Below are positions 9,734 to 35,651 of a DNA stretch of 44,968 nucleotides, in pieces. The notes under the pieces were generated by a model. The model did not search any database. It was given only the letters and a program-made list of their open reading frames with translations, and was not told the origin of the DNA. Made by a program: the position numbers and the translations under genes. The first letter of the stretch is position 1. Every line of letters begins with the position of its first letter. Source of the DNA: Rubrivivax sp. (GTDB lineage Bacteria; Pseudomonadota; Gammaproteobacteria; Burkholderiales; Burkholderiaceae_C); contig JAIXZR010000312.1 of the NCBI GenBank assembly GCA_027489455.1, forward strand, positions 1-44,968. The letters run 5' to 3'.

Positions 9734-9756
9734 GGGCTGCGCGAAGCGCGCAGCCC
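9734..9756. terminator. Perfect hairpin after the PEP-CTERM gene
   Basis: GGGCTGCGCG-AAG-CGCGCAGCCC forms a ten-pair stem with a three-base loop seven bases after the stop codon. It is terminator-like, but no T run follows because the inserted element starts seven bases later. Confidence 0.6.
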
Positions 9757-9784
9757 GCCCATCGCTACTGAGTAGCTGTTGCCC
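9755..9784. repeat. Left end of inserted element: 8-bp target duplication plus 22-bp terminal inverted repeat
   Basis: CCGCCCAT (9755-9762) is followed by the 22-bp repeat 9763-9784, which starts CGCTACTGAGTAGC and ends TGTTGCCC. The same 22 bases occur inverted at 35622-35643 with no mismatch, and the same eight bases follow them in direct orientation at 35644-35651. The outer 13 bases of the repeat (GCTACT-G-AGTAGC) are themselves a palindrome. Confidence 0.85.
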
Positions 9785-10096
9785 GACCCAATAAAATCAA
9801 CAACTTACCAGCATTCACAGGTCACCTCGTCTTGCGCGCCCGGGCCTCCCCGAGCAGAGCAGCTACCGCCGGGTTTCCCTGCGAGGGTCAAGCCAGAGAA
9901 GGTCAGGTGACTTTGCCAATGGTCACGAAGACAAGCGAGGCAACGCCGCACAGGGGCTAAGACGCTTACCGCATCTTGCCGGGATGTGGCGACATTCCCT
10001 TCCAGGCTAGCCGCTGTGCGTCGGGGTGTCCTTGACGGGTGATGTCATCAGGCAGGTTGATGGGCTCGATCTGAGCTTACGCTCAGAATGCTTGAG
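9785..10096. other. Gene-free left-end region of the element
   Basis: No credible reading frame on either strand. It is likely subterminal transposon DNA. It holds several GGTCA-type words (around 9820, 9900 and 9920) and a hairpin CTGAGC-TTAC-GCTCAG at 10071-10086, just past the stop of the leftward small gene. That hairpin could help end leftward transcription, though it has no T run. Confidence 0.6.
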
Positions 10097-10279
10097 CTAA
10101 CGGCCGAACTTTTCTGCGACTAGACGGACGAGCACAAGGTACACAACAGCGAAGACCATGAACACAGGCCCAGTTGTCCAAATCTCCAGCTGATCATGGA
10201 AGACCGCCATCGGAAACAGCCCGAGCGTGTAAACGTAGATTCTCTTCATTGGGGCGCAATAGTTTTTTGCCTTAGCCAT
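10097..10279 (-). CDS. Small hydrophobic protein downstream of the Rhs pair
   Basis: A 60-residue product with a basic N-terminus and one or two hydrophobic stretches (VYTLGLFPMAV; PVFMVFAVVYLVLVRLV), ending in charged AEKFGR. It is probably an inner-membrane microprotein. The chosen ATG overlaps the end of the upstream gene by eight bases (ATGGCTAA), so it would be the third member of a coupled Rhs operon. A shorter start at 10249 (MKRIYVY) is possible. No family recognised. Its position suggests an accessory or immunity role, but that is inference. Confidence 0.5.
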   Translation of the reverse strand: MAKAKNYCAPMKRIYVYTLGLFPMAVFHDQLEIWTTGPVFMVFAVVYLVLVRLVAEKFGR

Positions 10280-10697
10280 TGGCAGAAAGCCACGAAATGA
10301 GGCCTGGATCTGACTCCAGACGTTGAGCAATCCAGTAGCGACCATCTAGTTTCACTATCGCATACTTAATCGTCGGTGGGGCATTATCACCATCCCCAAT
10401 CAACTTGACCACCTTCAGCGACGAATATTCTACGAGCGATCGATTATCTGCCCGCACAAACCGGTACCCGTGCGCCGCAGATGGCTCAAGCTCGATCGGC
10501 CTAAATCTCCACAGCGCAGCCATTGCAGCAAAGACGAGGCCAGTGCAAAAGAAGAGCATCACCAATAGCATCAACGGAACAGTCATCGACTTTGCCGCGG
10601 CATTTGTGGAACTGGTGACCAGCAAGAAGGCAATATATCCAGACAACACAAAGGCTGATAGAGCGGCAAAGACTGAAAGTGTAAAACCCTTGCTCAT
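10272..10697 (-). CDS. Two-TM small protein translationally coupled to Rhs (candidate immunity protein)
   Basis: A 141-residue product with two predicted membrane helices (LSAFVLSGYIAFLLV and VPLMLLVMLFFCTGLVF) followed by ~75 soluble residues ending in WIAQRLESDPG. Its ATG (10697-10695) overlaps the Rhs stop codon as ATGA, so it is translated only if ribosomes finish Rhs. In known Rhs systems the gene right after the variable C-terminus is the cognate immunity gene. By that rule this is the best candidate, and a membrane location would fit a toxin with a hydrophobic, Gly-rich tail. No sequence family recognised. Confidence 0.7.
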   Translation of the reverse strand: MSKGFTLSVFAALSAFVLSGYIAFLLVTSSTNAAAKSMTVPLMLLVMLFFCTGLVFAAMAALWRFRPIELEPSAAHGYRFVRADNRSLVEYSSLKVVKLIGDGDNAPPTIKYAIVKLDGRYWIAQRLESDPGLISWLSANG

Positions 10698-13600
10698 TTG
10701 ACGCACCCACATGAAGGCGTTGCAGTATTTTGCCCGGCAAAGTTTCCCAACACACTGCCGGTTGCTGACAATGACGCGCCAGGCAGACCGGCCAGCGCTC
10801 TCTGTAAAACCTGACTTACTACGCTCCCAGCGAAGCGAGTTCCGGTAGCCCCAGGCGCAAGTAAGCCGCCGAAAGCTCCGCCGATTGCTGATCCGCCGAT
10901 AGCCCCTAAATTAATCCCTGTAAAGCACGGATCATCAATCGCTTGTGCTTGACCTAGAGTGTTCCCTACCGCTCCGGTAAAGGCTCTTAGTCCAGAGTTC
11001 CAAGCAAGGGCAGATCCTAATGAGCCGGTAGCTCCTGGGGTAATTAGGGGTCCCAAAGCACCTATAAGCGCACCTCCGACGCCTCCAACGACCGCTCCTC
11101 TGAAAACATTGCCGCCAGTTATATAGGCGCCGTATCCTCCAGTTGCGGCACCGATTAAACCTCCTGCGATGGCGCCTGGAACGCCAAAGACTAAACCCTC
11201 TGGATCTGCGTAAATGAATGGGTTCCCGCCTACATAGGCATAAGTGTTGATGCCACCCCCCAGCCCGATGGGGTCTGACTGGGTATAGCGGCCTGTCGTT
11301 GGGTCATACATCCTGTGCCAGTTCTGATGTAGGCCAGATTCGGCGTCATAGTACTGTCCTGGGAACCTGAGATTCACCACAGCGGTTCCAGTCGGCGATT
11401 CCGTTCCAAACGATGGGCCGCCCCATTGCCAAGTTACTTGCCCGGACGCATCGGTTCCGATCCGCGGAGTTCCGAGGTGGTCGGCGTGCAGGTAAAGCGG
11501 CACGGTTGGCCCGCTGCCTGTCGACTGAGCGACCGGTGCCCCGTCGACCCAAGCGTATACCCTCACAGGCGTACCTGCCGTTGTGCTTTCTTCGAGAAGT
11601 AGCCCGTCTGGACCCCAGTGGAACAGCGTCGTCCCGGTCGACGTTGTTTTTGAAGCTCGCAGCGCATCCGCTCGGTAGACGTAGGTTCCAACCGTCGCTC
11701 CGTTCGACGCGGCCTGAACCAACTTCCCAGCCTCGCTGTACACGAAGGACCGTGCTCCGATGGCTGCCGTGTTGCCCACAGCGTCGAGCACGATAGTTCC
11801 CGCATGGCTAGTCGCCATACGGTTGCTGTTGACCAGATAGCCGTAGTTGCCCGAGCCATCGCTCAGGCGATTCCCATTGGCGTCCCAGCCGAACGACTGA
11901 CCCGGCTCGCTGAGCAGGCGATTCAGCGCGTCATATCCCAGGCTTCGGGTAGATCCGCCGTAGCTCATCGTGGCGATGTTGCTCGCGCCGTCATAGGTGT
12001 ACGACCGAGTTTCGATCGAACCGACCGTCCAAACGACCAACCGGCCCGCCGTGTCGTAGGTCCTGCTCTCCACGACGCCGTTGCCGAAGGTCTGGCCTGT
12101 TGGCAGACCGTCTGAACGGTAGGTGCGGCCCGTGACCAGGTTTTGGCCTGCTGAGCTGACGCTGGCGACCTGCCCGTTGGCGTCATAGCTGTAGGTGACT
12201 TGCCGACCAGAGGGCGCGGTGATGGTGACGGGCCGATCAAATGCCGTCCACGTGTAGCCAGTGACGAACACCTGCCCGCCCAGGGCCGTGGAAGCTGTCC
12301 AGGTCTCCGTTGAGACGCGGCCCAGCCCGTCGTACGCAAAGCTTCTGGCACCGCTCGCGTCGGTCACCTGGCACAGCCTGCCAGCTCCGCACGAGTCATA
12401 CGTGTAGGACACGTTCTCAGCGCCAGACGGGTAAGAGATGCTGATGACGCGGCCGATCGCGTCGTAGGCGTAGCCGGTCAGCACTCCGCGTGCATCTGTC
12501 CTGCTGATCAGATTCCCGCCACCGTCGTAGCCGAGACTGACAGTGCCGCGGTCAGGACTGTGCTCCTTGAGCACATTGCCAAGGTCGTCGATCTCGAATC
12601 CAAAAGTCGCACCGTTGGGCGTCACCAGCTGTGCGATCTCCCCACCAGGCGTGAATGCAGCCGTGGTGCTGCCGTTCGCCGCATTGACGGTTTTCCAGAG
12701 CCGATTGAGGGCGTCGAACTCATTCGTCGTGATGTTCCCGCGCCCGTCTTGAACCTGCAGCACGTTGCCCAAAGCATCCGTGATGATGCTGGTCGTTGCG
12801 CCAGCTGCGGTGATGTACGACAGGTAGCTGCGGGCGTTGTAGACCATCGTCACCGCAGAGGCCACGGTTCCCGATGCATCCTTGACTGTCTGCGAGGTCC
12901 GATTGCTGCGAGTGTCGTAGCTGTACACCACCTGGTTGCCAGACTGGTCCGTGACGTTCAGCAGCTGATCGGCGCCATCGTAGACATAGGTCAGAACCTG
13001 GCCGCTCGGCACACTGGCCGTGTGCAGCCGGTTTGCGAGGTCATAGGTGAACCCGGTAGTGCGGCTCGTTCCGCCGCCCGTCTCGGTGATGCTGGCCAGG
13101 TTCCCCCGCGGCGAGTAGGTGTAGATGGTGACGATGCCGTCCGGCGCCGTCTTCTGCGTCAGCCTGCCCGCACCGTCGTAGTTGTCGAAGGTCGCCACGT
13201 GGCCCAGGGAGTTGGTGACCCTGCGCAGCTGACCGCATGCACCACCGCTGGTGCAGTTCCAATACTCCAGGCTCACCGTGTCAATGACATCTGATCTGGG
13301 GCCATCCAGCCCCGCGACCTGACCTGTCGCGTCGTACGTGATCGAGATCACCCGGCTCACTGCCGCACCGGTTGGCGTAAAGCCGGAGACCGTCACGCTC
13401 GTCGGCAAGAGCGGAAACCTGGTGTCGGCGTAGCCGTAGCTGGTGGTCTTTGCCAAGCCAGGTGCCACGCTGGGCTCTGACACCGCCTGTCGGATCGCGA
13501 AGAAGGTGTCTGCGTAGGAGGTAGAGGTCGTGTGGGCGATCGCCGTCCCTGCAGCACGCGTCTGCGCCACCAGGCGATTCGCCGCGTCATAGGCGTAGGT

Positions 13601-15040
13601 TGTTGTCTGTCCTTCCTCGTTCGTGACGCTCGAAACGTTCCCGGCGCCGTCGTAGCTCTTCCCGACCGTTTTGACGTCGGCACTGTTGGTGATCGCGTTG
13701 GTCTTGTTGATACCGAAGAGCCGCTCTCTCACCTTCGTGACCATGCGACCGAACGAGTCAGTGATCGTCGCGATGAACCCATCTGAGCTGAAGGACAGCA
13801 GCTTGGCGCCAGTCCCGCCGGCTCTGGACGTCCCGTTGGCCAGCAGTCGTTCCCGCTCGTAGGTGTACGTCGAGATCCGGGTTCCGGTGCCATCCACAAT
13901 GCCCGTGAGCCCGTGCGGGAAGAACATGGCCTCGTACAGGTACTGACGGTTCGAGCCGTCTGGGTACGCCGCTGACATCAGGTTGGAGGACGCGATGGTG
14001 AAAGTCACCTTCTTTCCAGCGGCATCAGTGACCGACACAGTGTTGCCGGCGTACCCGAAACTCAGTTTGTGTCCGAAGGGCCCTATGACCTGGGTCAGGA
14101 TACCCACTGACTGGTCGACCGTTGTCACCATCCCGCGTGCGTCGCGAACGGCGGTCAGCAGCCCGAACTTGTCGTAGACCTCCACCGTCCCGTTCTGAAG
14201 CGCCAGTTCGTAGCTCGACTCCTTCTCTTCGAGTCGAAGCTTGCTGTCCGTCTCGGCCGACCAAAATCCGATGCTGCCGGTGCCATTGAACTTCTGTTTG
14301 GCGCCGTCCGGTCGCAGGGCGACGATCTGGTTCCCTGTTCGTTCGAGGCGCATCGACCAGTTGTGTACCCAGCCGATACCCAGGTTGGCGAGGTTTCTGG
14401 TCTCGAAGCTGTTGTAGGTCCGCACGAAGCCAGGCACGCCGTTCCCGCCGACGATGTCGACCTCCCGCTGTACCTTGTTCCCGATCGCCGAATTGATCGG
14501 GTTTCCCTCGGCCTCGCTCTTCGAAGATTCACCACCACCCTGTGTCTGAGCCGAGCACGGGTCGTCATCACCGCCTCCGCCGCCACCACCCCCGCCACCA
14601 CAGCCCTTCTGGTTCGCAGAGCTGAAATCGGAGAAGGCACTGTTGACGCAATCATCTGGGCCCGGACCTACGAACTTGGTTCCCGGAGGACAAGCACTGT
14701 TCCTGCTGACGAAGTAGTCGTAGCGAACCGACGTGCCCCAGAAGGAGTAGCACGCCGTGCCAGCTGGCTTCTTCATCTGCACACGCGTCACCCGCGTGAG
14801 ACCGATGCCGTGGGGCTCTGCGTTGTTGTTGCAGGCGCTGTAGTACATGCTGCCATCGGCGCCGCACGTGTACCGAACCGGTTCCGCGTTGCACGCCGCA
14901 GCAGCCTCCGACACGGAGCCGAAGTAACGCTCGCTGGTACTGGTGGCTTGCGAGAAAGACTCCGTCCACCCCATCAACGCCGCGGCGCATAGCGCCACAA
15001 CGCGAAACCACTTCCATCCCACTGCTAAATCCGTTTTCAC
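10694..15040 (-). CDS. Rhs/YD-repeat protein with Sec signal peptide
   Basis: A 1448-residue polymorphic-toxin-type protein. The GTG at 15040 is chosen because AGGAG lies five bases upstream and the product begins with a clear signal peptide (VVALCAAALMGW ... SFSQA). A TTG at 15091 would add 17 unrelated residues. After a Cys-rich segment comes a run of ten Gly next to DDD, then the Rhs entry region (NPINSAIGNKVQREVDI). About 25 YD-type repeats follow, then the Rhs-associated core (YLHADHLGTPR; NWHRMYDPTTGRYTQSDPIG; YADPEGL). The ~130 residues after DPEGL form the variable tail. They are very rich in Gly/Ala with hydrophobic stretches and end TPSCGCVK. No nuclease, deaminase or other known toxin fold was recognised there. 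Sec export differs from the VgrG/PAAR route of many Rhs toxins. Confidence 0.92.
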   Translation of the reverse strand: MKTDLAVGWKWFRVVALCAAALMGWTESFSQATSTSERYFGSVSEAAAACNAEPVRYTCGADGSMYYSACNNNAEPHGIGLTRVTRVQMKKPAGTACYSFWGTSVRYDYFVSRNSACPPGTKFVGPGPDDCVNSAFSDFSSANQKGCGGGGGGGGGGDDDPCSAQTQGGGESSKSEAEGNPINSAIGNKVQREVDIVGGNGVPGFVRTYNSFETRNLANLGIGWVHNWSMRLERTGNQIVALRPDGAKQKFNGTGSIGFWSAETDSKLRLEEKESSYELALQNGTVEVYDKFGLLTAVRDARGMVTTVDQSVGILTQVIGPFGHKLSFGYAGNTVSVTDAAGKKVTFTIASSNLMSAAYPDGSNRQYLYEAMFFPHGLTGIVDGTGTRISTYTYERERLLANGTSRAGGTGAKLLSFSSDGFIATITDSFGRMVTKVRERLFGINKTNAITNSADVKTVGKSYDGAGNVSSVTNEEGQTTTYAYDAANRLVAQTRAAGTAIAHTTSTSYADTFFAIRQAVSEPSVAPGLAKTTSYGYADTRFPLLPTSVTVSGFTPTGAAVSRVISITYDATGQVAGLDGPRSDVIDTVSLEYWNCTSGGACGQLRRVTNSLGHVATFDNYDGAGRLTQKTAPDGIVTIYTYSPRGNLASITETGGGTSRTTGFTYDLANRLHTASVPSGQVLTYVYDGADQLLNVTDQSGNQVVYSYDTRSNRTSQTVKDASGTVASAVTMVYNARSYLSYITAAGATTSIITDALGNVLQVQDGRGNITTNEFDALNRLWKTVNAANGSTTAAFTPGGEIAQLVTPNGATFGFEIDDLGNVLKEHSPDRGTVSLGYDGGGNLISRTDARGVLTGYAYDAIGRVISISYPSGAENVSYTYDSCGAGRLCQVTDASGARSFAYDGLGRVSTETWTASTALGGQVFVTGYTWTAFDRPVTITAPSGRQVTYSYDANGQVASVSSAGQNLVTGRTYRSDGLPTGQTFGNGVVESRTYDTAGRLVVWTVGSIETRSYTYDGASNIATMSYGGSTRSLGYDALNRLLSEPGQSFGWDANGNRLSDGSGNYGYLVNSNRMATSHAGTIVLDAVGNTAAIGARSFVYSEAGKLVQAASNGATVGTYVYRADALRASKTTSTGTTLFHWGPDGLLLEESTTAGTPVRVYAWVDGAPVAQSTGSGPTVPLYLHADHLGTPRIGTDASGQVTWQWGGPSFGTESPTGTAVVNLRFPGQYYDAESGLHQNWHRMYDPTTGRYTQSDPIGLGGGINTYAYVGGNPFIYADPEGLVFGVPGAIAGGLIGAATGGYGAYITGGNVFRGAVVGGVGGALIGALGPLITPGATGSLGSALAWNSGLRAFTGAVGNTLGQAQAIDDPCFTGINLGAIGGSAIGGAFGGLLAPGATGTRFAGSVVSQVLQRALAGLPGASLSATGSVLGNFAGQNTATPSCGCVK

Positions 15041-15367
15041 TTGCTCTCCTGACCGAACTGGACCTCGCCCAGCGCAGCCAAGATTTTTCAAGCATTCGGC
15101 TATAACACAGAGGATTCTTTCGCTTGCATCCAGCCGCGCACGGCCAGTTAGCCGTTACGGCGAAACGACAGCAAGAACGTCAAGTTCAATGAATTTCTTG
15201 AGGCTTCTACTAAGTAGCTTTCTGCTTCGTGAAGAAGCCATCGTGTTATCGCGAGTCTGTCGGACAATCTCGGCCAGCGAGACTTGCTTTCTCAGGTCTC
15301 ACCACCATCACCCCGAACGCCGGCGCTTCTCGAAGGCCTTGGCTTAGATCGAATCAGTCGGATCGAG
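15041..15367. promoter_or_regulatory. Intergenic region between Rhs and the HTH-like gene
   Basis: No gene seen. For Rhs, the minus strand has an extended -10 like TG-T-TATAGC (TATAGC at 15104-15099), about 50 bases before the GTG; no good -35 is visible. The middle (15201-15239) holds a hairpin whose loop resembles the element's terminal repeat. The right part should contain the promoter of the rightward gene at 15368, but I see no convincing hexamers. The stretch is A+T-rich relative to the flanks. Confidence 0.5.
15201..15239. repeat. Internal sequence resembling the terminal inverted repeat, in a hairpin
   Basis: CTACTAAGTAGCTTT at 15207-15221 matches bases 9765-9779 of the left terminal repeat at 13 of 15 positions and in the same orientation, including the palindromic core. 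It is enclosed by GGCTTCT (15202-15208) and AGAAGCC (15233-15239), which can pair. It may be a subterminal transposase site, the scar of an earlier element end, or chance. Confidence 0.45.
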
Positions 15368-16504: not shown

Positions 16505-18589
16505 TCAATCGATCCCGAAGCGCTTGAGCACTGGCTCCCAAGCCGCAGCCGCTTCCGGATTCGCCAGCTTCCATCGCTGAAGCTCGGCGCCCCTGAAAAC
16601 CCAGTTCTTGATGCTGCCCGCACCTGCGCGGGACAAGGGTTCTCTGGGCGCCGCGTCATTCGACAGAAACCGTGCGGGACGTGACGGCGTTTCCGTATAG
16701 GACTTGACGAAGCGTCGGCTACTCTCATCCCACAACAAGTTCGGTACCGCCGGTCGCTTGCCGAAGCCGTGCGCGAGCCCCTCAGCCATTTCAGGGAAAA
16801 GTAGGCTCAGCAAGCGGTCGTACTTGGTCGACCTGAGGTACATGAAGTCCTGGCGCTTCACTGCCGCGATCACGCTGCTCCTCCATGCGTCGAACCATGT
16901 GAAAACACGCGCATCCTCCGGCAGCGTCGGCAGATACGCCTTGACTGCAATGAGGTAGAGCGTCCAGTCGTGCCGATTGCCAGGCTGGGACTGCTGAATC
17001 GCGTTCAAGACTTCGACGGCCGTAGCGAATCCGTATCCGACGCCACGGTTGTTCCGGATAGACAGCAGCCTTGACAAGATTCGGTGGTGACCCAGCAGGT
17101 CTTCGTCTCCGGCCTCGGGAAACCCGCGCTGACTCATGTCCTCGACAGTGATCGCAACGGCCGTTCTGGCTGCCATCACCTCATCGCTGCGCTCAGCTCC
17201 TGCTGGCAACCTGCTGTCCTCGTCCAGCATCTTCTCAACCGCCGCGAGGTACCTGACCGCCAAGTCCCTGATCGGCGTGTCCTTTACACGCTGGTGCCGT
17301 TCCGCGGCGATGCGCTCTGCCTCCAGCTTGAGGTCCCTCTCATCTTCCATCTCTCTTCGAAGTGAAGTTCGAAGTTCATTCAAGCCTGGATAGCACAGCC
17401 AGCGTTTACCCACAACCTGGAGAACTACGAGACGACGAAGCTCCTCGCGGGTGACCCGACCGCCAGTCATCGACAAGTCGATCTCCAGAGCGGCGCATCC
17501 TTGTTCACGGATTCGTGTCTCACGAGCCTCGTCGATCGTATTGGTCACCGTGACTTCGATGACGAGCGGGTCGAACACGCGCCCGTTGTCGGCTCGTGCC
17601 ACGGAGACGACATCCGGAACCAGAGGACGCATGCGCTGCTCAAGGCGCGTGTCGGACAACGACAAGACGCTCTGGGGGACGGACCAGCGTCGATGCAGCG
17701 TAGGATGTCCGTCAGTTTTCAGCTCTTCCAGACCGTCCAAGCCGGGAACGGCGATCTTCTCCGCTGCCTCCAGAATGCGCTTCACTTCGTGGTGTAGCAG
17801 CGTCTCTCGCTTCATCGCTGGGCTGAGGTCGTTGGGCAGCACAAGGTCTTCTGGAAGCCAATCCAGCGCGTCCATGGCCATGCCCTTTGCCTGGCGGGCG
17901 GCATCGGCTCGCAGTTCGGCTTCGTTCCAGTGCGAACGCCAGCAGATGCCCTCCGGCAAGATCTGCAAACGCTTTCGAATCTCGTCTTGGTCCATGCCGG
18001 CAACCGAAGCATCGACATTGATCGTGATCGTTGGCACAAGCGTCGTTTCGCCGTCGTCGTCTGCTTGTTCTGTGATGCCACCGGTAAGCGCCACGCGGAG
18101 CTGCCTCCCGTCGTCCAAGGTCAGCACGGCGAACGTCCGGTCTCTGAAGTCGATGCTGGAAACGCGAACGCGCTGAGGCGGTACCTCGACCCAAGCCTGG
18201 TGCACCGCACCGCTCAGGCCCTCAGCTGAGGCAGAAACGCGGCGGCGGGGGAGCTCGATCACGCCTTCTTCTGCGAGCAGCCTCATCGCAGCTGCGCGAG
18301 CCGCCAGGACCGCGCACTCGTCGCGCTCTGCGCCTTCAGGATGCCGGAAGTGAGGCCTGCGGACCACCTTCTCTTTGGCTGCGTTGACCGCGATCAAGGG
18401 GAGCCTGCAGCTCGGGCACTCGCATCCGCAACGATTGCCCCTGTGGTCCGCGTCTATCTCGCCGATGTAGCGTGGCTCTCCGGTCTCGATGTCGCGCGCC
18501 CAAGCCATGACCAGTTCGCCGAGCGCAGCCTTAGCGCCCTGGGCGGAGTCAGACCTAATCTTGACGGAGGGTGAAGCGATCCGTGCCAT
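16505..18589 (-). CDS. CoiA-like zinc-finger nuclease (694 residues)
   Basis: The N-terminus has the layout of competence protein CoiA and relatives: a zinc cluster C54/C56-C58-x2-C61 followed by the PHFRHP motif (H80, H83) and a Cys at 92. Around residue ~330 lies a restriction-endonuclease-like core (PDVVSVARADNG ... DPLVIEVTVTN ... ALEIDLS), with the Asp and the Glu of a PD-(D/E)xK site but Thr where Lys is usual. That pattern is common in CoiA-like proteins. The remaining ~330 residues are mostly helical and unrecognised. CoiA itself acts in DNA uptake and recombination. Large CoiA-like proteins on islands may act on incoming DNA, which is inference here. The start is uncertain: the ATG at 18589 has no strong ribosome site. 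It follows the 168-residue gene by 14 bases. Confidence 0.72.
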   Translation of the reverse strand: MARIASPSVKIRSDSAQGAKAALGELVMAWARDIETGEPRYIGEIDADHRGNRCGCECPSCRLPLIAVNAAKEKVVRRPHFRHPEGAERDECAVLAARAAAMRLLAEEGVIELPRRRVSASAEGLSGAVHQAWVEVPPQRVRVSSIDFRDRTFAVLTLDDGRQLRVALTGGITEQADDDGETTLVPTITINVDASVAGMDQDEIRKRLQILPEGICWRSHWNEAELRADAARQAKGMAMDALDWLPEDLVLPNDLSPAMKRETLLHHEVKRILEAAEKIAVPGLDGLEELKTDGHPTLHRRWSVPQSVLSLSDTRLEQRMRPLVPDVVSVARADNGRVFDPLVIEVTVTNTIDEARETRIREQGCAALEIDLSMTGGRVTREELRRLVVLQVVGKRWLCYPGLNELRTSLRREMEDERDLKLEAERIAAERHQRVKDTPIRDLAVRYLAAVEKMLDEDSRLPAGAERSDEVMAARTAVAITVEDMSQRGFPEAGDEDLLGHHRILSRLLSIRNNRGVGYGFATAVEVLNAIQQSQPGNRHDWTLYLIAVKAYLPTLPEDARVFTWFDAWRSSVIAAVKRQDFMYLRSTKYDRLLSLLFPEMAEGLAHGFGKRPAVPNLLWDESSRRFVKSYTETPSRPARFLSNDAAPREPLSRAGAGSIKNWVFRGAELQRWKLANPEAAAAWEPVLKRFGID

Positions 18590-19110: not shown

Positions 19111-19117
19111 GTCTCGC

Positions 19118-19525: not shown

Positions 19526-19616
19526 GTTGTTCACTCCTCAACGCTAGGTAGTGCCTCTTGTTGTTCAAACCTGATTCTCAGCGCCGCATGCCAATTACGG
19601 GAGCGCCTTTTGATGC

Positions 19617-20015: not shown

Positions 20016-20017
20016 GG

Positions 20018-20422: not shown

Positions 20423-20436
20423 GTGTTTGCCTCGCG

Positions 20437-20536
20437 TTTGCATGCATCAGCTCATGGATTGCATGGTAGAGGCCGAGTCGCATGTCGTCAAGCGATTCCG
20501 GGGGATTTGCATGCAGTGCGAGCCAGATTGCATGCA
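20437..20536. promoter_or_regulatory. Four TGCATG(CA) operator-like sites in two 21-bp-spaced pairs
   Basis: TGCATGCA occurs at 20439-20446, 20508-20515 and 20529-20536. A variant TGCATGGT is at 20460-20467. Starts within each pair are 21 bases apart (20439/20460 and 20508/20529), two DNA turns, so proteins would sit on the same face. One pair lies upstream of the -35, the other over the -10 and start site. This suits cooperative repression, possibly with a loop, by the ribbon-helix-helix-like protein encoded next. Confidence 0.72.
20463..20491 (-). promoter_or_regulatory. Promoter of the leftward cassette
   Basis: On the minus strand TTGACG (20491-20486) and TACCAT (20468-20463) are separated by exactly 17 bases, a good sigma-70 promoter. 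Transcription would start near 20456, about 34 bases before the ATG at 20422. The -10 overlaps the second TGCATG site. Confidence 0.72.
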
Positions 20537-20691: not shown

Positions 20692-20697
20692 GGCACG

Positions 20698-24346: not shown

Positions 24347-24358
24347 AAGTTCAGGAAC

Positions 24359-27391: not shown

Positions 27392-28606
27392 GTGGCAACA
27401 ACGATCCCGGAAATCTACAGAGAGCGCGAGCCCGCATTCATCAAGCACACGCTTCTCGAAAACTACTTGGAGACCTTGGTTCTCACGATCGGGCTGGCCG
27501 CAAAGGGCGATGCCCATGCCGAGATTTGTTACGTCGATTGCTTTGCCGGACCGTGGGGATCAGATGACGATGACCTGGACGGCACGTCGATCGCCTTGTC
27601 GCTCAAGACGCTTGCCAGTTGCAAAGCCAAACTCGCGTCGCTAGGCGTGAACGCTCGCATGCGGGCGCTGTTCATTGAGAAGGACAAGAAGGCGTTCGGG
27701 CGTCTGTCCGCGTTCTTGAAGCGCGGGACCTTTGCCGAAGTTGAGCGCGAATGCTTCGCAGGAGACTTCGTCGACTTGCGGCAGGAGATCCTAAGGTGGT
27801 GCGGCACCAACGGCTTCACCTTCTTCTTCATCGATCCCAAGGGTTGGACGCCTGTGGTGATTGAAGTGCTGCGGCCTTTGCTGCAACGGCGCAGGTCAGA
27901 GTTCCTGATCAACTTCATCTACGACTTCATCAATCGCACGGCATCCATGTCGGGCTGGGAAGAGGAGATGAAGCAACTGCTGGGACGCTCGGTCGACTTG
28001 ACCGATCTCAGTCCTCCGCAGCGGGAAGATGCGCTGCTCACCGCCTATCGAGACAGCCTCAAGCAGTGCGTCCCTTCAGGGAAGGCGAACTATCGGCCGC
28101 GAACAGCCTATGTTGGGGTACTGCATCCACTGCACGACCGCACGAAGTACCACCTCGTGTACCTCAGCAGCCACCCGCTCGGTATCGTGAAATTCATGAA
28201 TACGTCGGAGAAGGCGGACATCGTGCAAGCACGGGTTCGTGCCGCGAAGCAGTTAGACGCGCAGGCCAAGAAGTCAGGCACCGATGACATGTTTGCAGAC
28301 GCCGCCGAGACTGTGCCAGGCGAGGGGCGCAGTACGCCGGAAGAGGTCGATGATTACTGGCGGATGTACCTCGTCGACGGCGCCAGACGCATCGACACCG
28401 CTGCCTTCGCCGACATACTGGAAGAGACCAACTGGCTTCCGGGCGAGCTCCAGGGGTCCTTGGTGCGCCTCATCAAGGCCGGCCAGTTGGAGAATATGGA
28501 TGACGGCGGGAAGAGGCGCCCGGCCAAACCTCTGCACTTTGAAAAGAACGGCGAGCGCCTGCGCCTCACAGACACAGGACTGCTTGCCGCCGGGCCAGCA
28601 CCATGA
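27392..28606 (+). CDS. tcmP: Three-Cys-motif partner protein TcmP, copy 2
   Basis: A 404-residue TcmP-family protein starting with GTG (AGAGGG nine bases upstream). Motif I is CYVDCFAGPWG (D49), and FFFIDPKGWTP supplies the DPxG motif that copy 1 lacks in exact form. The C-terminal part is a winged-helix-like region with acidic linkers (DDMFADAAETVPGEG). It begins 81 bases after the restriction enzyme, so the operon has one three-Cys protein but two divergent TcmP partners flanking an MmeI-type enzyme. Either both partners serve one Gp37/Gp68 protein or this copy has separated and works with the restriction module. Confidence 0.85.
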   Translation: MATTIPEIYREREPAFIKHTLLENYLETLVLTIGLAAKGDAHAEICYVDCFAGPWGSDDDDLDGTSIALSLKTLASCKAKLASLGVNARMRALFIEKDKKAFGRLSAFLKRGTFAEVERECFAGDFVDLRQEILRWCGTNGFTFFFIDPKGWTPVVIEVLRPLLQRRRSEFLINFIYDFINRTASMSGWEEEMKQLLGRSVDLTDLSPPQREDALLTAYRDSLKQCVPSGKANYRPRTAYVGVLHPLHDRTKYHLVYLSSHPLGIVKFMNTSEKADIVQARVRAAKQLDAQAKKSGTDDMFADAAETVPGEGRSTPEEVDDYWRMYLVDGARRIDTAAFADILEETNWLPGELQGSLVRLIKAGQLENMDDGGKRRPAKPLHFEKNGERLRLTDTGLLAAGPAP

Positions 28607-28702: not shown

Positions 28703-29662
28703 ATGGCTGACGAGTACCACTATCCTCCGGACTTGCTTGAGTTGCTCGTGGAAGCACTGGCAAGGCTGAACAAGAGCAAGAAGGGCGTCGTCACCTTCCT
28801 GCGAGGCGCCGGCGTTGACGAAGCGGACCTGGCTGATGTCGCTGAAATCGTTCGGAAGAGCCCGGCTTCGATCAACAAGTTCGAGATCGCCCGCCAGGCC
28901 CTCGTGAAGGTCAATGCACGTGGCGACAGCGGGCTACGCCCCAGGCGCGAAATCATCAAGCGAGTTGTCGAGTTCGAGGACTACTCCAGCTGCTGGCCTG
29001 AGGACCAGTTGAAGGCACGTGGCCTGGTAGCAGCCGTCCGCGAGGCCGTCAACAAGAAGGACGCGTTCACGCGTATGCATCAAGAGCGCGATGTTGAACG
29101 AGCCGAAGTGGTCGCAAGACAACGCGCTGACCAAGCCGCAGCCGCGGAGAAGCGAGCGAAGATTGAGAGCGTCAACAGTCGCCTGATATCCCTGTTCGGC
29201 ATGGACGACAGGCCGCATGAGCGGGGCAAGCTGCTGGAGGCCGTACTCAACGACCTGTTCAAGGCCTATGGAGTCAACGTCCGGGAGGATTTTCGGCGGA
29301 AAGACCCAGACTCGTCAGTTGTCATTGAACAGATTGATGGCGTCATCGAGTTGGACGGTGCGATTCACCTCGTCGAGATGAAGTGGCTGAATAGCCCCGT
29401 TGGAGTCGGCGAGTTCTTACCTCACTTGTCGCGCCTCTTCCTTCGCGCAAACGCGCATGGCATCTTCATTTCATCGTCCGGCTACACAGAACCTGTTGTC
29501 AAGGAATGCACAACCGCCCTGGCCCAGAAGACGATGATCCTCTGCTCTCTTCAAGAATTCGTGATGCTGCTTCAGAGACAGGGCGACCTGATCGCTTTCC
29601 TCAAGCGCAAGTCGCAGGCCGCCATCGTGGACAAGAACCCATACCTGCAGATTCTTTCGTAG
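28703..29662 (+). CDS. Mrr-like restriction endonuclease with N-terminal helical region
   Basis: A 319-residue protein. Residues 1-165 are helical and charged. Residues ~170-300 form a Mrr-type endonuclease core: RGKLLE (E179), EQIDG (D212) and VEMKW (E225-x-K227), followed by FISSSGYTEPVV, the usual helix-strand after the site. Mrr-type enzymes cut methylated or foreign DNA. Here the enzyme may act alone as a modification-dependent nuclease or be the effector for the ATPase encoded 57 bases downstream. It begins 96 bases after TcmP copy 2, with only a weak GGAT ribosome site. Confidence 0.82.
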   Translation: MADEYHYPPDLLELLVEALARLNKSKKGVVTFLRGAGVDEADLADVAEIVRKSPASINKFEIARQALVKVNARGDSGLRPRREIIKRVVEFEDYSSCWPEDQLKARGLVAAVREAVNKKDAFTRMHQERDVERAEVVARQRADQAAAAEKRAKIESVNSRLISLFGMDDRPHERGKLLEAVLNDLFKAYGVNVREDFRRKDPDSSVVIEQIDGVIELDGAIHLVEMKWLNSPVGVGEFLPHLSRLFLRANAHGIFISSSGYTEPVVKECTTALAQKTMILCSLQEFVMLLQRQGDLIAFLKRKSQAAIVDKNPYLQILS

Positions 29663-29719: not shown

Positions 29720-32347
29720 ATGAATAGGCCTTTGGTCGCCAAGAAGACCGTGTTGGAAATGGTCTTGGAATGGTCCGCCGATCGTCCGGCGTGGCAGCGT
29801 GACGCGCTGCGAAGGATCGTCGCCCACGGGCGCCTGTCTGAAGGTGATGTCGCCGAGCTTGTCACGCTCTGCAAGATTGGTCGTGGAGCCCCTGCAGGCG
29901 ACTGCAAGGCCGTTCCGCTGGAACCGCATCATCTCCCTGCAAATCCCGATCAGGCCGAATCGGTAACCCTGCTCTCGGTGTCCGATGTCAAGGGTGCCAA
30001 CAACCTTGCACCAACACAGAACTTGGCCTTCGAGCCCAAAGGGCTAACCGTCATCTACGGTGACAACGGCGCGGGGAAGTCGGGCTACGCGCGGATTCTG
30101 AAGCGTGCATGCCGTGCGCGCCACGCGGGTCGCATTGAAGCGAACGTCTATGACGATCAAGCGCCGAAGTCTGCCAGCGCCACAATCAGTTTCGGGATCG
30201 GTGGCGCAGCGCAGCCGGCTGAGCGTTGGCAGGACAGCCCACAGCCGCATGCTCGGCTGTCTGCGGTCAGCGTCTTCGACAGCGAGTGCGCATCAGTTCA
30301 TCTGCGGGACAAGAACGAGGTGGCGTTCCGTCCGTTCGGCCTTGATGTGCCGGACGAGTTGGCGAATGCCTGTCAAGCCGTCAAGGACGCACTCGCGGCT
30401 GAGCAGAAGGCGCTCGAAAAGGCCCGAAATCCAATCTTCGCAGCGCCTACGTGGAAGGCAACAACCGCCGTCGGCAAGGCACTCGCAGCACTGTCAGCGA
30501 GCACCGACATCAAGGCGATCGAGACCCTCGGAACGCTCCCGGCGGAGGAGGCGTCACGTCTTGATCGATTGCGTGACGACTTGGCAAAGAACCCAGCCAA
30601 GGCTGCTGCCGAACAGGCGCTGAAAGCCGACAACGTCAAGCGCGTCATCGCATCGGTGAGTGCGATTGCCACTGGCAGTTCAGAAGAAGCGCTGGCCGCA
30701 GTCTTCGACGCTGCCGAGGTCAGCCGCGTCAAGCGCGAGGCGGCACGCGTTGCGGCAGCGAGTGCCTTTGGTGGTGAGCCTGTGGAGGGTGTCGGCAGTG
30801 ATGTCTGGCGCACGCTCTGGGAAACTGCCAAGAGCTACTCGACTGGCACGGCCTATCCAGGCCAGCCTTTCCCGCCCACCGCCGATGGCGCGCACTGTGT
30901 TTTGTGCTTGCAGCCACTGGTCCCGGAGGCCTTGTCGCGCATGGCACGCTTCGAAGATTTCGTTCGCCAAGACACTGCTCTGCAGGCGCAGCAGGCGGAA
31001 CTTGCTGCAACCCGTGCTCTGAAGACACTCACGGGTGTGGCGATGCGTACGCGCGAATTGAAGGCAGTGCTTGATGAGCTTGCCATTCAAGATGCACCGC
31101 TGCATCTCATGACCCGTCGGTTCATTGCCAGTGCCCGCTTGCGCCGCCATGTTCAGCTTCAGGCAATCGACAAGTGTGAGCGTGTCGTGCTTCCTCTAGC
31201 GAGCGCATCACCGGTTGCCGGGCTGACCGAACTCGAAGCGACAGTTCGGAAGTATTCGCAGGAGCTGCGGCAGTCGTCGGGCGCTGAAGAAAGGAAGAAG
31301 CTTGAAGGCGAATTGGCCGAACTGTCCGATCGCGCTTTGTTGGCCAGCTTGATGCCTACAGTGCTGGAGGAAATTGAACGGTTGAAGTCCATTCGATTTA
31401 TTTCCACGTGTGCTGCCGATACGACAACCAACTCCATCACCAAGATCGGCAATGACATCGCTGACACCGTCATCACACCGAAGATGCGGGACAGGTTCCA
31501 GGAAGAGATCGTCAGGCTTGCCGCTGAGAAGGTGCGCGTCGAGATTGTCCGGTCAGGGGGAAAGTATGGGTCGCCTCAGTACCAGGTCCGTCTGTTCGCG
31601 AAACCGGATGCCAAGGTCCACGAAATACTGAGCGAGGGAGAACGGACGTGCGTCGCGCTGGCATCGTTCATGACCGAGCTGGCGACTGCCGGGCACCACT
31701 CTGCGCTGGTCTTCGATGACCCGGTTTCATCGCTGGACCATCGCTGGCGACGAAAGGTCGCTGAGCGCCTCGTGGATGAGGCTGCCCAACGGCAGGTAAT
31801 CGTATTCACGCACGATCTCGTGTTCGTCAACGATCTCGTCGACCGCGCAGAGCACCAGAAGATTCCGCTGCGGCTCAACACCGTGAGTAGGGGTCCAACC
31901 GGGGCAGGCCGAGTTGCAGAAGGACTCCCTTGGAAGGCCCAAAGCGTCGAGGATCGGATCGACAAGATGGAGAAGGCCGCGAGGGCAGCGAAAGTCTTGT
32001 ACGACAGCAATCGTGAAGATGAGTATGACGCTGAGGCCGTTCGAATCTACAGCCAACTACGCGCATCCTGGGAGCGCGCATTGGAGGACATCGCCTTCTA
32101 CCGCGTCGTGCAGCGGCACCGAGACTATGTCAACACCAAGGACCTCAAGAAGGTGAGCGCGCTGACGGCCACGGACTGTGATGCGTTTGCCGTCGGCTTC
32201 AAGAGATGCTGCGACATCGTGGACGCCCATGATCCATCTGGTGGGCGCAACGCTGCCTCACCACCGCCAGCCGATGTGCTTCAAGATATCCAAGCCCTCA
32301 AAGACTGGGTTGCGGCGCTACGCACAAGGCAGAAGCAAATAGTCTGA
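29720..32347 (+). CDS. RloC-like ABC/SMC-type ATPase with zinc-hook (AAA_13 class)
   Basis: An 875-residue protein with Walker A GDNGAGKS (114-121), a long coiled-coil interrupted by a zinc-hook-like C393-x2-C396 (CVLCLQPL), ABC signature LSEGER (637-642) and Walker B LVFDDP (663-668) with the SSLDH D-loop and a THD switch. This is the layout of PrrC/RloC and related AAA_13 ATPases, where the last part carries an anticodon nuclease. After ~750 there is R781-x3-E785 (LRASWE) with His candidates at 800 and 837, reminiscent of the Arg-Glu-His set, but the match is short and uncertain. It could instead be an SMC-like sensor for the adjacent Mrr nuclease. A GGAAG site precedes the ATG. It is the last gene of the operon. 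Confidence 0.8.
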   Translation: MNRPLVAKKTVLEMVLEWSADRPAWQRDALRRIVAHGRLSEGDVAELVTLCKIGRGAPAGDCKAVPLEPHHLPANPDQAESVTLLSVSDVKGANNLAPTQNLAFEPKGLTVIYGDNGAGKSGYARILKRACRARHAGRIEANVYDDQAPKSASATISFGIGGAAQPAERWQDSPQPHARLSAVSVFDSECASVHLRDKNEVAFRPFGLDVPDELANACQAVKDALAAEQKALEKARNPIFAAPTWKATTAVGKALAALSASTDIKAIETLGTLPAEEASRLDRLRDDLAKNPAKAAAEQALKADNVKRVIASVSAIATGSSEEALAAVFDAAEVSRVKREAARVAAASAFGGEPVEGVGSDVWRTLWETAKSYSTGTAYPGQPFPPTADGAHCVLCLQPLVPEALSRMARFEDFVRQDTALQAQQAELAATRALKTLTGVAMRTRELKAVLDELAIQDAPLHLMTRRFIASARLRRHVQLQAIDKCERVVLPLASASPVAGLTELEATVRKYSQELRQSSGAEERKKLEGELAELSDRALLASLMPTVLEEIERLKSIRFISTCAADTTTNSITKIGNDIADTVITPKMRDRFQEEIVRLAAEKVRVEIVRSGGKYGSPQYQVRLFAKPDAKVHEILSEGERTCVALASFMTELATAGHHSALVFDDPVSSLDHRWRRKVAERLVDEAAQRQVIVFTHDLVFVNDLVDRAEHQKIPLRLNTVSRGPTGAGRVAEGLPWKAQSVEDRIDKMEKAARAAKVLYDSNREDEYDAEAVRIYSQLRASWERALEDIAFYRVVQRHRDYVNTKDLKKVSALTATDCDAFAVGFKRCCDIVDAHDPSGGRNAASPPPADVLQDIQALKDWVAALRTRQKQIV

Positions 32348-32372: not shown

Positions 32373-33365
32373 TCAGGCATCGTTTGTTTTGTCAGTTTCG
32401 TTAAGTGCCTTCTTCTTGCGTAAGGCTTTGATGTCGCCCGGATCTCTTCGACTGAAGCCGATTGCCTCGTTGGAAGCCTGATGTCGAATCTCACTATCCG
32501 ATGGCGACCAGTCCCCGCGACGCCGGTAGATTGTTCGTGCCGGTGGCATGTAGACGTAAGTCTCAGCGACATAAAACGGCACTGTGGGATCAAGCTGCTC
32601 AAATTCAGATCCAAGAAATTTCTTGAGAACAAAGTCGAGCAAGGCAGGTTGAATTCGCCGCAACTCCCGAGACTGTTGCGCGTCGTGTAGCTGCGCGCGA
32701 ACTCTCTTGCCAAGTGCTCTGGCTGTATCTATACGGCCCGCGTCTTTGGCTTCCCTGAATAGGAGCAGGAACGTTGCGAGCAGGTCCAGCTTCAGAGGTT
32801 CTTCGTCAAAGGGGTACTCCCAAAGGTGTTCGTTCTCGACAACCCACCAGTCGCGGTGTGGCTGTTCATCCTCAGTAGCGCCGTAGTCGAAGAAGTTGGA
32901 ACTGACATCCTCGTGCATGCTTAGCAGCAGCTCGTTGACCACTGGGACGTGCGTGACAAAACGAGGGTCGAGCGCGATCCAGAGTGGGTGCTCGAAGACT
33001 TGCCTCGTTCTCGGGTAACGATCTCCGATGGTCGCAACGATGCCGGGATGCCCCTTGATGGTCACTGAAGGGGTTGGCTTTCCGAACTTGCCGTAGCGCT
33101 CCCAAAGGCGCTTCCTGCCCTCCCCGTCGTGCTGGAAGTGCTGCTCCAGGAGAGCGGGGGTATCGAACGGCGACTCGTGGGTCACCGACTCATACCAGGC
33201 AATCGTTCGGAACGTATCGATGATCGTTCGTTTCCGTCCGTCGACCTTGTCCGGGCCAGCCTTTGGAAGCTTCATGAGCTGGTAGGGCAACCAGGGGATG
33301 GAGCACGCATCTCGAAAAATGATCCGTCTAGTCGGAACGAGCACGCTGGTTGACGATCCGGTCAC
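32373..33365 (-). CDS. Hypothetical protein, ~330 residues
   Basis: Not recognised. It is transcribed towards the ATPase gene and ends 25 bases from its stop. The start is a GTG at 33365 or another at 33344 (VLVPTRR). Features include Trp/His/Asp-rich loops (QPHRDWWVVENEHLWEYPFDEEP), a helical middle (LLATFLLLFREAKDAGRIDTARALG) and a basic tail (ALRKKKALNETDKTND). No signal peptide or clear catalytic motif. It is divergent from the small wHTH gene at 33387, 21 bases away, so both may share control. Confidence 0.65.
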   Translation of the reverse strand: MTGSSTSVLVPTRRIIFRDACSIPWLPYQLMKLPKAGPDKVDGRKRTIIDTFRTIAWYESVTHESPFDTPALLEQHFQHDGEGRKRLWERYGKFGKPTPSVTIKGHPGIVATIGDRYPRTRQVFEHPLWIALDPRFVTHVPVVNELLLSMHEDVSSNFFDYGATEDEQPHRDWWVVENEHLWEYPFDEEPLKLDLLATFLLLFREAKDAGRIDTARALGKRVRAQLHDAQQSRELRRIQPALLDFVLKKFLGSEFEQLDPTVPFYVAETYVYMPPARTIYRRRGDWSPSDSEIRHQASNEAIGFSRRDPGDIKALRKKKALNETDKTNDA

Positions 33366-33386: not shown

Positions 33387-33665
33387 GTGACAAAGAGAGC
33401 GCTCCCACCCGTCGTCGCCAGAACAGCGCCACTAGCGGGTGAGCTTGTCAGCGGTGAGGAGCTGTGGCGGCGCCTGGGATACAGGACTGCCGCGTCGTTC
33501 AGGCAAGCCGCGCACCGAAAGACGGTGCCTATCAAGATCTTCGATCTACCGAATCGGAGAGGCAAGCATGCCTTTAGGTCTGACCTCGACGCATGGGTCG
33601 CCGAACTCGTCGCAAACGCTGGCGCCAAGCCTGCTGGCCGCCAAGCAGAGGGGGGATCTGAATGA
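33387..33665 (+). CDS. Excisionase-like small wHTH protein
   Basis: A 92-residue basic protein with GTG start. LVSGEELWRRLGYRTAASFRQAAHRKTVPIKIFDLP ends in a conserved-looking FRSDLDAWVAEL, the layout of MerR-like winged-helix excisionases and AlpA-type regulators. It sits 245 bases before the transposase, in a stretch of several hairpins, so it may act as an accessory DNA-bending factor for the element or as a regulator of the divergent unknown gene. Both roles are inference. Confidence 0.6.
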   Translation: MTKRALPPVVARTAPLAGELVSGEELWRRLGYRTAASFRQAAHRKTVPIKIFDLPNRRGKHAFRSDLDAWVAELVANAGAKPAGRQAEGGSE

Positions 33666-33896: not shown

Positions 33897-33910
33897 GCCG
33901 CACGACAACC

Positions 33911-35023
33911 ATGACCTCCACCAGGAGCGAACACAAGAACTTTCTGATGCACGCCAAGTGCCGGGACTTCACCAACTTCGACGTCGCCAACATGAGTGAA
34001 GAGGAGTGCTACTGGCACTTCGTAGAAGCCAGATTCGGAAGCCGGGATACTTTCGCCTGTCCGGGGTGCGGAACCATCGCAACACACTACTACCGATCCA
34101 ATCGGCGCCAGTGGCGATGCAGACACTGCGACAAGGACTTTTCGTGCACGACCGGCACCGCCTTGCAGGACCGCAAGCTTCCGTTCAAGAAGCTGCTGTT
34201 CGGCATCTCCTACTTCGTCAGCGGTGCGAAGGGCATCGCGTCCCTGCACATGAGCCGCGTGCTCGACGTCCAGGTGAAGACCGCCTTTGTCTTCGCGGGC
34301 AAGCTCCGGGAAGCATTGGCGCGATCGGTCGATCAGACGCCGCTGTCAGGGACCGTCGAGTTGGACGGCGGGCACTTCTGCGGCAGACCGAGAAGTGGCC
34401 GAATCAGGAAGAAGCCGTCGACCACGGCAATCGCAGCGCTTGTCAAGGACGCGCTGAACAAGCAGGCAGGCAATGGGATCAGCCCGAAGCCCAGGCCGTC
34501 AATGACTCGCGCGAACATCAAACGACGTAAGAACCGCCGCATCGTCTTTGTGCTCCGGCAGCACAGCGGGACCCATGAGCGCGGTGCCGTCAGGACAATG
34601 ATCTCCGTTCTGACCGCCGAAACCGCTGACCAAGTGATGCCCGTGATCGAGGGTAACGTAGTCAAGGGCTCGAAGATCATGACTGACGAGTGCAACGCAT
34701 ACACACGGCTGAATGCGAACTACGAGCACGAGGTCGTCAACCACCAGATCGAGTACAGCACCATCGACGGCGTCAACGAGAACCAGGCGGAGAGTTACTT
34801 CTCGCGGTTGCGCCGATACGTCGTGGGCATCGCGCACAACACACGTCCCAAGTACCTGCCGGACATAGCATGGGAAATGGCGTGGCGCGAGGACTACAGG
34901 CGGAATCCGGAAGGCGAGAAGACCGCACACGTTCTCAAGTCCATGGCGGCCAACGGCCGTTCGCTCAAGTGGCGCGGCTACTGGCAACGGGCAAAGCTTC
35001 AGACCGTGTCTGCCCCTGCGTAG
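33911..35023 (+). CDS. IS1595-family transposase
   Basis: A 370-residue transposase of the IS1595 (ISXO2-like) family. The N-terminal zinc ribbon has C50-x2-C53 and C70-x2-C73 (CPGCG, CRHC). The catalytic core has D152 in ELDGGHFCG, D259 in MTDECNAYT and the later Asn/Glu motif in NENQAESYFSRLRR. Both Asp are intact and the protein looks full length, so it may be active. It is the only transposase in the 25.9-kb element and lies ~600 bases from the right end, the usual place for the enzyme of a transposon with cargo. The C-terminal 25 bases overlap the convergent gene at 34999-35586. No separate short IS ends were found around it. Confidence 0.92.
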   Translation: MTSTRSEHKNFLMHAKCRDFTNFDVANMSEEECYWHFVEARFGSRDTFACPGCGTIATHYYRSNRRQWRCRHCDKDFSCTTGTALQDRKLPFKKLLFGISYFVSGAKGIASLHMSRVLDVQVKTAFVFAGKLREALARSVDQTPLSGTVELDGGHFCGRPRSGRIRKKPSTTAIAALVKDALNKQAGNGISPKPRPSMTRANIKRRKNRRIVFVLRQHSGTHERGAVRTMISVLTAETADQVMPVIEGNVVKGSKIMTDECNAYTRLNANYEHEVVNHQIEYSTIDGVNENQAESYFSRLRRYVVGIAHNTRPKYLPDIAWEMAWREDYRRNPEGEKTAHVLKSMAANGRSLKWRGYWQRAKLQTVSAPA

Positions 35024-35586
35024 TCTCCAGGGCCACCCACAGCTGCCCAGCGCCCTTCCAAACTCGTTTTCGCAACATGGATGCGCCTGATCGCACCGAC
35101 GACTGCGAGGCGTCGCATGCGACGCCGCACGCGAAGGCGGAAGCTCTGGAACTCAGCATCGGACAGGGCGCAGCCAGACTGCTCGCACAGGCTCAGGGCG
35201 ATCTCGGTGGTAGTGAGCTCGGCGCCCTCGGACTCGCGTAGCGCCCTCAGAACCAGCCGAGTCATCTGGCCGTAGTCCATCGCCCAGCCGTTGTACTGAC
35301 TGCGGATCGGCGAGATGCGCGCCGGATCGACATCTACGTCGTACAGCCGGATCGATGCGTCGATGGCGGCCAGGTCGGCATCCAACGCCTTCAGCCGTCC
35401 GGGCCCATGAAGCTTGGCTGTTTCAAGCCGCCTCTGGCACGAGTTCAGCCGTTTCTGCGAGACGGCGACTTCTGCTTCAATCTGGGCGTAGAGCGCAGGT
35501 AGCCGCTCTTCGAGACGCTGCTTTTCGCCCAACAGACGCGCTCGACGCGTCAGCAACCATTTCAGAGCCGAAGGGATCTTGACCAT
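34999..35586 (-). CDS. Coiled-coil hypothetical protein at the right end of the element
   Basis: A 195-residue basic protein. The first ~80 residues are a likely coiled coil (GEKQRLEERLPALYAQIEAE ... LNSCQRRLETAK). The middle looks like a winged helix (MTRLVLRALRESEGAELTTTEIALSLCEQSG ... FRLRVRRRMRRL). Its ATG at 35586 lies 36 bases inside the right terminal repeat and its 3' end overlaps the transposase gene. It may be a transposition accessory or target-choice protein, by position only. I do not recognise a family. Confidence 0.65.
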   Translation of the reverse strand: MVKIPSALKWLLTRRARLLGEKQRLEERLPALYAQIEAEVAVSQKRLNSCQRRLETAKLHGPGRLKALDADLAAIDASIRLYDVDVDPARISPIRSQYNGWAMDYGQMTRLVLRALRESEGAELTTTEIALSLCEQSGCALSDAEFQSFRLRVRRRMRRLAVVGAIRRIHVAKTSLEGRWAAVGGPGDYAGADTV

Positions 35587-35621
35587 GCACACACTGTATG
35601 CATGGCCAGTTCTTTCACCCA

Positions 35622-35651
35622 GGGCAACAGCTACTCAGTAGCGCCGCCCAT
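35622..35651. repeat. Right end of inserted element: 22-bp terminal inverted repeat plus 8-bp target duplication
   Basis: The 22 bases at 35622-35643 (starting GGGCAACA and ending GCTACTCAGTAGCG) are the exact inverse of 9763-9784. CCGCCCAT (35644-35651) repeats 9755-9762 directly. The chromosomal terminator of glxR begins five bases further on. Confidence 0.85.

Follow-up and report, generated by a model that had tools for sequence, protein, structure and literature searches.

Insertion sequences of the IS1595 family and its passenger-carrying 'tIS' members were reportedly described by Siguier in 2009. The family generates 8-bp target duplications, and members that carry passengers are counted within it. 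In most work on how defence genes spread between bacteria, the vehicles named are prophages, integrative elements and Tn7-like transposons; Tn7-like and other transposons are known that are large and defence-carrying, with further genes beside the transposase. Here we describe an element in a contig of Rubrivivax sp. (JAIXZR010000312.1, assembly GCA_027489455.1), the whole of which, 44,968 bp, was analysed and is referred to as the window. Positions 9763–35643 (25,881 bp, about 20 genes) very probably constitute one transposon that is moved by an IS1595-type transposase, with proteins A, B and D as parts of a mobility module and an exchangeable cargo of which much is probably devoted to defence. 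The element resembles IS1595/tIS members in its ISXO2-like DDE transposase with a zinc ribbon, its terminal inverted repeats and its 8-bp duplications, and differs from them in its length of 26 kb, its number of genes, the shared proteins A, B and D, and its defence cargo. With Tn7-like transposons it has in common the large size, the defence genes and the extra genes adjoining the transposase, but Pfam scans of the window open reading frames (ORFs) gave no TnsB-, TnsC- or TniQ-type match, and there is a single IS1595-type transposase. IS1595 elements with passengers are known already, and the window element extends that kind. What is new here, beyond the original prediction of a defence-bearing IS1595-type transposon, is the companion gene D, which is common to most of the elements that we delimited, together with two more shared genes near the transposase, the abundance of predicted defence genes in the cargo, the exchange of cargo between elements and the placing of the element as one of many.

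According to the accessible part of PMC5704250, MTnSag1 and tISCpe8 are IS1595 members with passengers that, like the window element, have an IS1595-type transposase, inverted repeats (25-bp ends in their case) and target direct repeats; MTnSag1 forms a circular intermediate, and tISCpe8 carries a resistance passenger, going by a title cited there. Unlike the window element, both are mobilizable elements of Streptococcus and Clostridium, and the same part of this source makes no mention of D-like genes or phage defence cargo on them. The accessible part of PMC12561309 gives 8-bp repeats for ISApl4, an IS1016-type member, and duplications of 7–9 bp for IS1016 elements; the window ends are unlike the GGGGCTGTACTAGA of ISApl4. 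Nothing on defence cargo of IS1595 elements was found in the accessible parts of PMC11092175, PMC12888890, PMC3281130 and PMC6211672. A literature search for IS1595 elements with defence cargo or phage defence found no report among the listed titles and abstract openings, with most subscription journals outside its coverage, so novelty is unproven.

The ends and the putative mobility module of the element comprise the following features.
9755–9762, no strand: left target-site duplication CCGCCCAT; the junction is undisturbed in two relatives
9763–9784, + strand: left terminal inverted repeat, 22 bp, with GCTA-N5-TAGC
32373–33365, − strand: protein A of the mobility module, no Pfam match; start probably near 33275, judging from homologues
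33387–33665, + strand: protein B, 92 amino acids; homologues lie upstream of the transposase in several elements
33911–35023, + strand: IS1595-type transposase, 370 amino acids, with D152/D259/E294 and four zinc-ribbon cysteines
34999–35592, − strand: companion gene for protein D, running towards the transposase gene (convergent); a coiled coil and a winged helix are predicted
35622–35643, − strand: right terminal inverted repeat, 22 bp
35644–35651, no strand: right target-site duplication CCGCCCAT

Direct sequence comparison confirmed the predicted termini: the left end recurs in inverted orientation at the right end over 22 bp with 0 mismatches, and the 8 bp of CCGCCCAT directly adjoin the element on either side. 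The window holds just these two matches to the 22-bp repeat at ≤3 mismatches (mean in 100 shuffles, 0.00). The interior, which had been predicted to differ from the chromosome in composition, has a GC content of 60.1% versus 69.8% outside (left flank 70.3%, right flank 69.3%). Alternatively, the segment might be a common genomic island whose inverted repeats are there by chance, or the transposase might be an unrelated passenger; dinucleotide shuffling of the GC-rich window (30 shuffles) does produce exact inverted repeats of as much as 19 bp, so repeat length alone is weak evidence and not decisive. However, an inverted repeat of ≥11 bp with an abutting 8-bp direct repeat was present once in the real window and in 0 of the 30 shuffles. 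Together with the empty sites in two related genomes and the family-like ends in many others that are described below, this makes the island explanation hardly credible, and a chance origin of the repeat was rejected on the basis of both shuffling results. A multicopy intergenic repeat of the host was rejected as well, because the inner 20 bp of the repeat occur at two sites only (≤3 mismatches) in the 4.47-Mb host metagenome-assembled genome (MAG; 315 contigs, 7.36% contamination, the window being one entire contig). As an additional feature, the window end at 9763–9784 contains the inverted repeat GCTA-N5-TAGC, which is kept in six of the eight ends that were checked (window counted) and is a possible dimer site.

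Empty sites in related genomes, which the original prediction proposed to look for, were found in two genomes of the same genus. The right flank was matched in all 60 sampled same-genus genomes (own MAG counted), many of them partially. The left flank was also matched in two of 11 loci from other genomes (L127 in G333 and L129 in G319); the remaining nine had no left-flank match and are uninformative in this respect. In G333 and G319, both flanking genes stand side by side with no cargo and no inverted repeat, the terminator of the facing gene coming immediately after the PEP-CTERM gene with its terminator stem. The duplicated 8 bases at the insertion site differ between the Rubrivivax window and the species of G333 and G319. 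Relatives without the cargo that still hold both 22-bp repeats had been named as evidence that would speak against a transposon, and neither of these two genomes keeps a repeat. Deletion in the relatives as the source of the difference was rejected, since the flanks and terminators are adjacent there and no end remains.

The transposase is encoded 620 bp from the right end of the element and matches PF12762 (E 2.9e-27) and PF12760 (E 2.1e-9), both above cut-offs. It has the ISXO2-like DDE domain and N-terminal zinc ribbon of the IS1595 family, with the catalytic residues D152, D259 and E294 and four cysteines all present, and from its sequence it looks intact. No second transposase copy was found in the host MAG. 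The Pfam matches bear out the predicted IS1595-family transposase inside the element. Among the matches listed in a protein search, its best relatives are 82, 72 and 70% identical, and the window ends resemble the ends around related transposases. The 8-bp target duplication of the family is present as CCGCCCAT, and exact 8-bp duplications occur in relatives too. With 25,881 bp and cargo, the element departs from the short, IS-like size with a transposase alone; this bars the label 'insertion sequence' and not membership of the IS1595 transposase family.

A scan of genome and viral contigs with a single transposase sequence gave no match, whereas a scan based on an alignment of 39 transposase sequences yielded 80 of the 194 genome loci that encode a relative, and 19 loci on viral contigs. 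In 106 loci plus the window, 107 sequences in all, a script searched around the transposase for inverted ends with exact 8-bp duplications next to them, and family-like ends, with at least 15 of 20 bases matching, were chosen by eye from its output. Such ends with exact 8-bp duplications were present in 53 of the 107 sequences (window counted). Four elements were added after upstream extension or a one-base shift, which gave 57 delimited elements: L023 (18,991 bp, duplication GCCAGTAA), L032 (19,258 bp, GCCTGAAT) and L043 of Oxalicibacterium faecigallinarum CCM 2767 (24,831 bp, TTGCACCA), all with upstream DNA added, and L034 (GTTCTCGG, left end shifted one base outward). Outside the 57 are L018 and L030, whose paired ends lack a matching duplication, L015, which was delimited at a later stage, and loci that are truncated, exceed the DNA in hand or lack family-like ends; a left end with a matching duplication was not found for L017, L019 and L055. 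Loci L004–L014 had flanks of only about 1.5 kb, and L004 and L007 are the same loci as L019 and L035.

A common end form in the delimited elements is CG(C/G)(T/C)ATTA(T/G)GTAGC..., and the window end CGCTACTGAGTAGCTGTTGCCC is close to CGCTATTATGTAGCTGTTGCAC of Alkalimonas. The other copies with different cargo that had been anticipated are thus present in many genomes, with similar ends, exact 8-bp duplications and differing cargo. In Alkalimonas amylolytica, there are two 9,119-bp copies, which the draft assembly gives as 100% identical; the first has GTGGTTGA on either side and the second, split over two contig ends, has AGTATCCC. On sequence evidence, these copies support transposition by a family transposase acting on such ends. 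The median length of the delimited elements is 4.6 kb, and the window element is the largest of the 57. Its description as a new and very large member therefore stands as regards size, but one relative is larger. L015, the closest locus by transposase (69%), has its right repeat on contig C33 of genome G299, and the identical 22 bp recur on contig C125 of the same MAG, again next to the TTTCAGGG duplication; assuming that C33 and C125 belong together, this element measures at least 10,250 + 26,266 = 36,516 bp.

The D gene is located between the transposase and the right end of the window element. In a tblastn search with window D (E up to 0.01), 21 of 26 other right-end regions proved to contain it. 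A profile built from 40 D proteins, whose training alignment included 12 of the 57 elements, had matches at E up to 1e-3 in 55 of the 57 and in 43 of the 45 that were not used for training; the exceptions were L050 (weak, E 0.0034) and L060 (none). A reversed-protein control gave 1 match in 14,013 frames (E 0.0071). The D frame adjoins an end and points inward in 45 of the 52 elements that passed a strict containment filter, and in 33 of 40 in the group L041–L111 (mostly alphaproteobacterial, outside training); in L028, L033 and L095, D is at the left end. In 299 same-family genomes there are 12 transposase places (own counted); at 11 of them D lies in convergent orientation no farther than about 4 kb away, and the twelfth is truncated by the end of its contig. 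Three of 369 class genomes encode D at E up to 1e-6 (own counted), in the other two beside an IS1595-type transposase. The model of D (mean predicted local distance difference test score, pLDDT, 82) consists of a long helix (residues 8–83) and a C-terminal winged-helix-like part; structure comparison of D gave weak winged-helix matches in the PDB, none at E up to 0.001. Window D had no match in NCBIfam or PADLOC and none above cut-off in Pfam.

The gene of D begins beside the end, and judging from sequence and model the most likely role of D is to bind end DNA and to control or assist transposition. That it merely regulates, or often travels near the end as a passenger, with no direct part in transposition, is possible if rather doubtful. 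The direct role is read from sequence and model, L060 lacks D and L050 has just a weak match, and of the 19 D loci that the family search gave, 11 have no transposase within 1.5 kb, which argues against strict pairing (at the loci in G067, G100 and G173, a transposase is present farther away). Against this reading stand the presence of D in 55 of 57 elements despite their differing cargo, and its convergent orientation at 11 of 12 transposase places. D is also found doubled, as neighbouring copies, in G036:C38, G067:C125, G100:C145 and C140, G217:C1 and G295:C1, some beside a transposase and some with none within 1.5 kb. According to a profile comparison (96% probability, E 1.7e-9), some members of the beta/gamma branch have protein A too; comparison of its structure model (mean pLDDT 69) gave no match. 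Homologues of B occur in six elements and L015, again in part of the beta/gamma branch.

The cargo of the window element is as follows.
10272–10712, − strand: small protein beside Rhs, 146 amino acids, no Pfam match
10694–15091, − strand: Rhs/YD-repeat protein, 1465 amino acids
15284–15883, + strand: protein with a weak helix-turn-helix match (HTH_3 E 3.3e-4, below Pfam cut-off)
16505–18589, − strand: 694-amino-acid protein, earlier labelled 'CoiA-like', without family support
18604–20443, − strand: four small ORFs, no Pfam match
20659–20988, + strand: 109-amino-acid ORF; a stretch in the L015 element is 61% identical
20981–21613, + strand: permuted papain-like amidase (Peptidase_C92)
21690–22280, + strand: S24-peptidase (LexA/UmuD-like) regulator
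22317–23063, + strand: DUF5131 protein; a protein in the L040 transposon is 70% identical
22955–24346, + strand: TcmP-type partner protein 1 (TcmP1), GMT-wHTH domain; true start probably 23072
24359–27310, + strand: type IIG restriction-methylation enzyme (MmeI-like); a protein in the L015 element is 92.7% identical
27392–28606, + strand: TcmP-type partner protein 2
28703–29662, + strand: Mrr_cat-like nuclease candidate (E 7.8e-4, just below Pfam cut-off), no PADLOC match
29720–32347, + strand: SMC/Rad50-like ATPase, PADLOC candidate PDC-S06 (E 1.8e-203)

The Rhs locus (10694–15091) and the multi-enzyme restriction operon of the original prediction are both present, and the CoiA-like label for 16505–18589 lacks support from Pfam (best match E 0.11, to another family). 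The type IIG protein contains MmeI_Mtase, MmeI_hel, MmeI_TRD and MmeI_C domains (PADLOC type IIG, E 4.4e-259) and matches the MmeI structure 5hr4 (E 4.9e-41, residues 21–329); it has the fused spacer, methyltransferase and target-recognition domains of this type, and its activity is predicted. The TcmP protein matches the PADLOC candidate PDC-M30A. PADLOC gave no match for the Mrr-like protein, A, D or the 694-amino-acid protein. The genes for DUF5131, TcmP, type IIG, TcmP, Mrr-like nuclease and SMC-like ATPase form a predicted restriction operon with a probable function in phage defence.

PADLOC (E up to 1e-8) assigned matches to nine of 14 sibling elements: IetAS (L024), PD-Lambda-5_A (L028), partial PDC-M36A (L033), type I restriction (L034), type IIG (L040), a methyltransferase (L018, an element without a matching duplication), PDC-M01A/B and PDC-S32 (L043), PDC-S28 (L032) and PifA (L023). 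The L027 and L035 proteins were run as a pool only. In pools, 94 models matched in 42 cargo proteins and 242 in 52, versus 1 model in 52 flanking proteins (the first 52 of 94 proteins drawn from 167); these counts are redundant, with many models per protein, and show the enrichment roughly only. By these assignments, the transposon cargo is rich in predicted defence genes.

Over window positions 24353–27296, almost exactly the type IIG gene, the window and L015 are 85.3% identical in DNA (92.7% in protein), whereas the backbones, compared between A and the right end, are 69.8% identical, which indicates that cargo was exchanged between divergent backbones. L040 shares DUF5131 (70%) and TcmP1 (69%) with the window and has a transposase that is 38% identical; therefore, cargo is common to otherwise divergent backbones. 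The nearly gene-exact match would also fit a history in which the duplication arose when a small IS1595-type element inserted, and cargo recombined into the same site later, so that the 26-kb unit never moved whole; the median length of just 4.6 kb points the same way. Yet exact duplications are likewise retained by elements measuring 19.0, 19.3, 24.8 and at least 36.5 kb, and the two identical 9.1-kb copies show that cargo moves with the ends. The window element could have followed such a course all the same, which we consider unlikely.

Several observations weigh against the interpretation of 9763–35643 as one mobile defence transposon. A second copy of the 26-kb element was not found in the host MAG, with its 315 contigs and 7.36% contamination, so that movement of the full 26 kb is deduced indirectly. 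The figure of 36.5 kb for the L015 element comes from joining two contigs of a single MAG, and the Alkalimonas copies were found to be identical in a draft assembly. Proteins tested singly from L021 (two), L026 and L031 (one each) had no PADLOC defence match. Cargo matches between the window and the 14 siblings plus L015 are few, namely the type IIG protein and the 109-amino-acid ORF (L015), DUF5131 and TcmP1 (L040), and the regulator (L018).

The insertion itself is documented directly by the ends, the duplication and the empty site. In the transposon interpretation, which similar ends and duplications in relatives support and neither proposed refutation contradicted, the transposase would recognize the 22-bp ends, as the same pairing in relatives suggests, and the unit would have inserted between two facing terminators with duplication of CCGCCCAT. 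A, B, D and the transposase would form the mobility module, in which D, a predicted coiled-coil winged-helix protein, most likely acts on end DNA. The rest would be cargo open to exchange, with much of it probably acting against phages and, judging from the families, to the advantage of the host. As a tentative generalization that could go either way, we propose that IS1595-type transposases drive a widespread, unremarked class of large defence transposons in Proteobacteria, with D (and A and B in one branch) as a dedicated factor that enables lengths of 20–40 kb, and with defence genes being swapped. An IS-type transposase, of a family usual in tiny insertion sequences, thus appears to carry whole defence cassettes. 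The intact ends permit automatic delimiting of elements and their cargo, and hence the finding of further candidate defence genes, and D offers a direct way into why IS1595-type elements grow so large.

Some further observations concern the related elements. L077:3513-15351 (11.8 kb, outside the 57) has different paired ends (GGGTGTTAT...), an exact 8-bp duplication and D-like frames near the right end. The element on G299 contigs C33/C125 (L015, L114, L122) encodes a 1232-amino-acid SMC-like ATPase; Wadjet was considered for this cargo and is not claimed, as two Pfam families of Wadjet were not found in that genome and the SMC-like protein had no PDB match. Transposase relatives are encoded on 19 IMG/VR contigs (L095–L113), and contigs of this kind harbour six of the 57 delimited elements. 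Of 43 target duplications in L041–L111, 10 include AATTC or GGAATT, and AATTC occurs in 0 of 14 in the beta/gamma branch, which points to a possible target-site preference.

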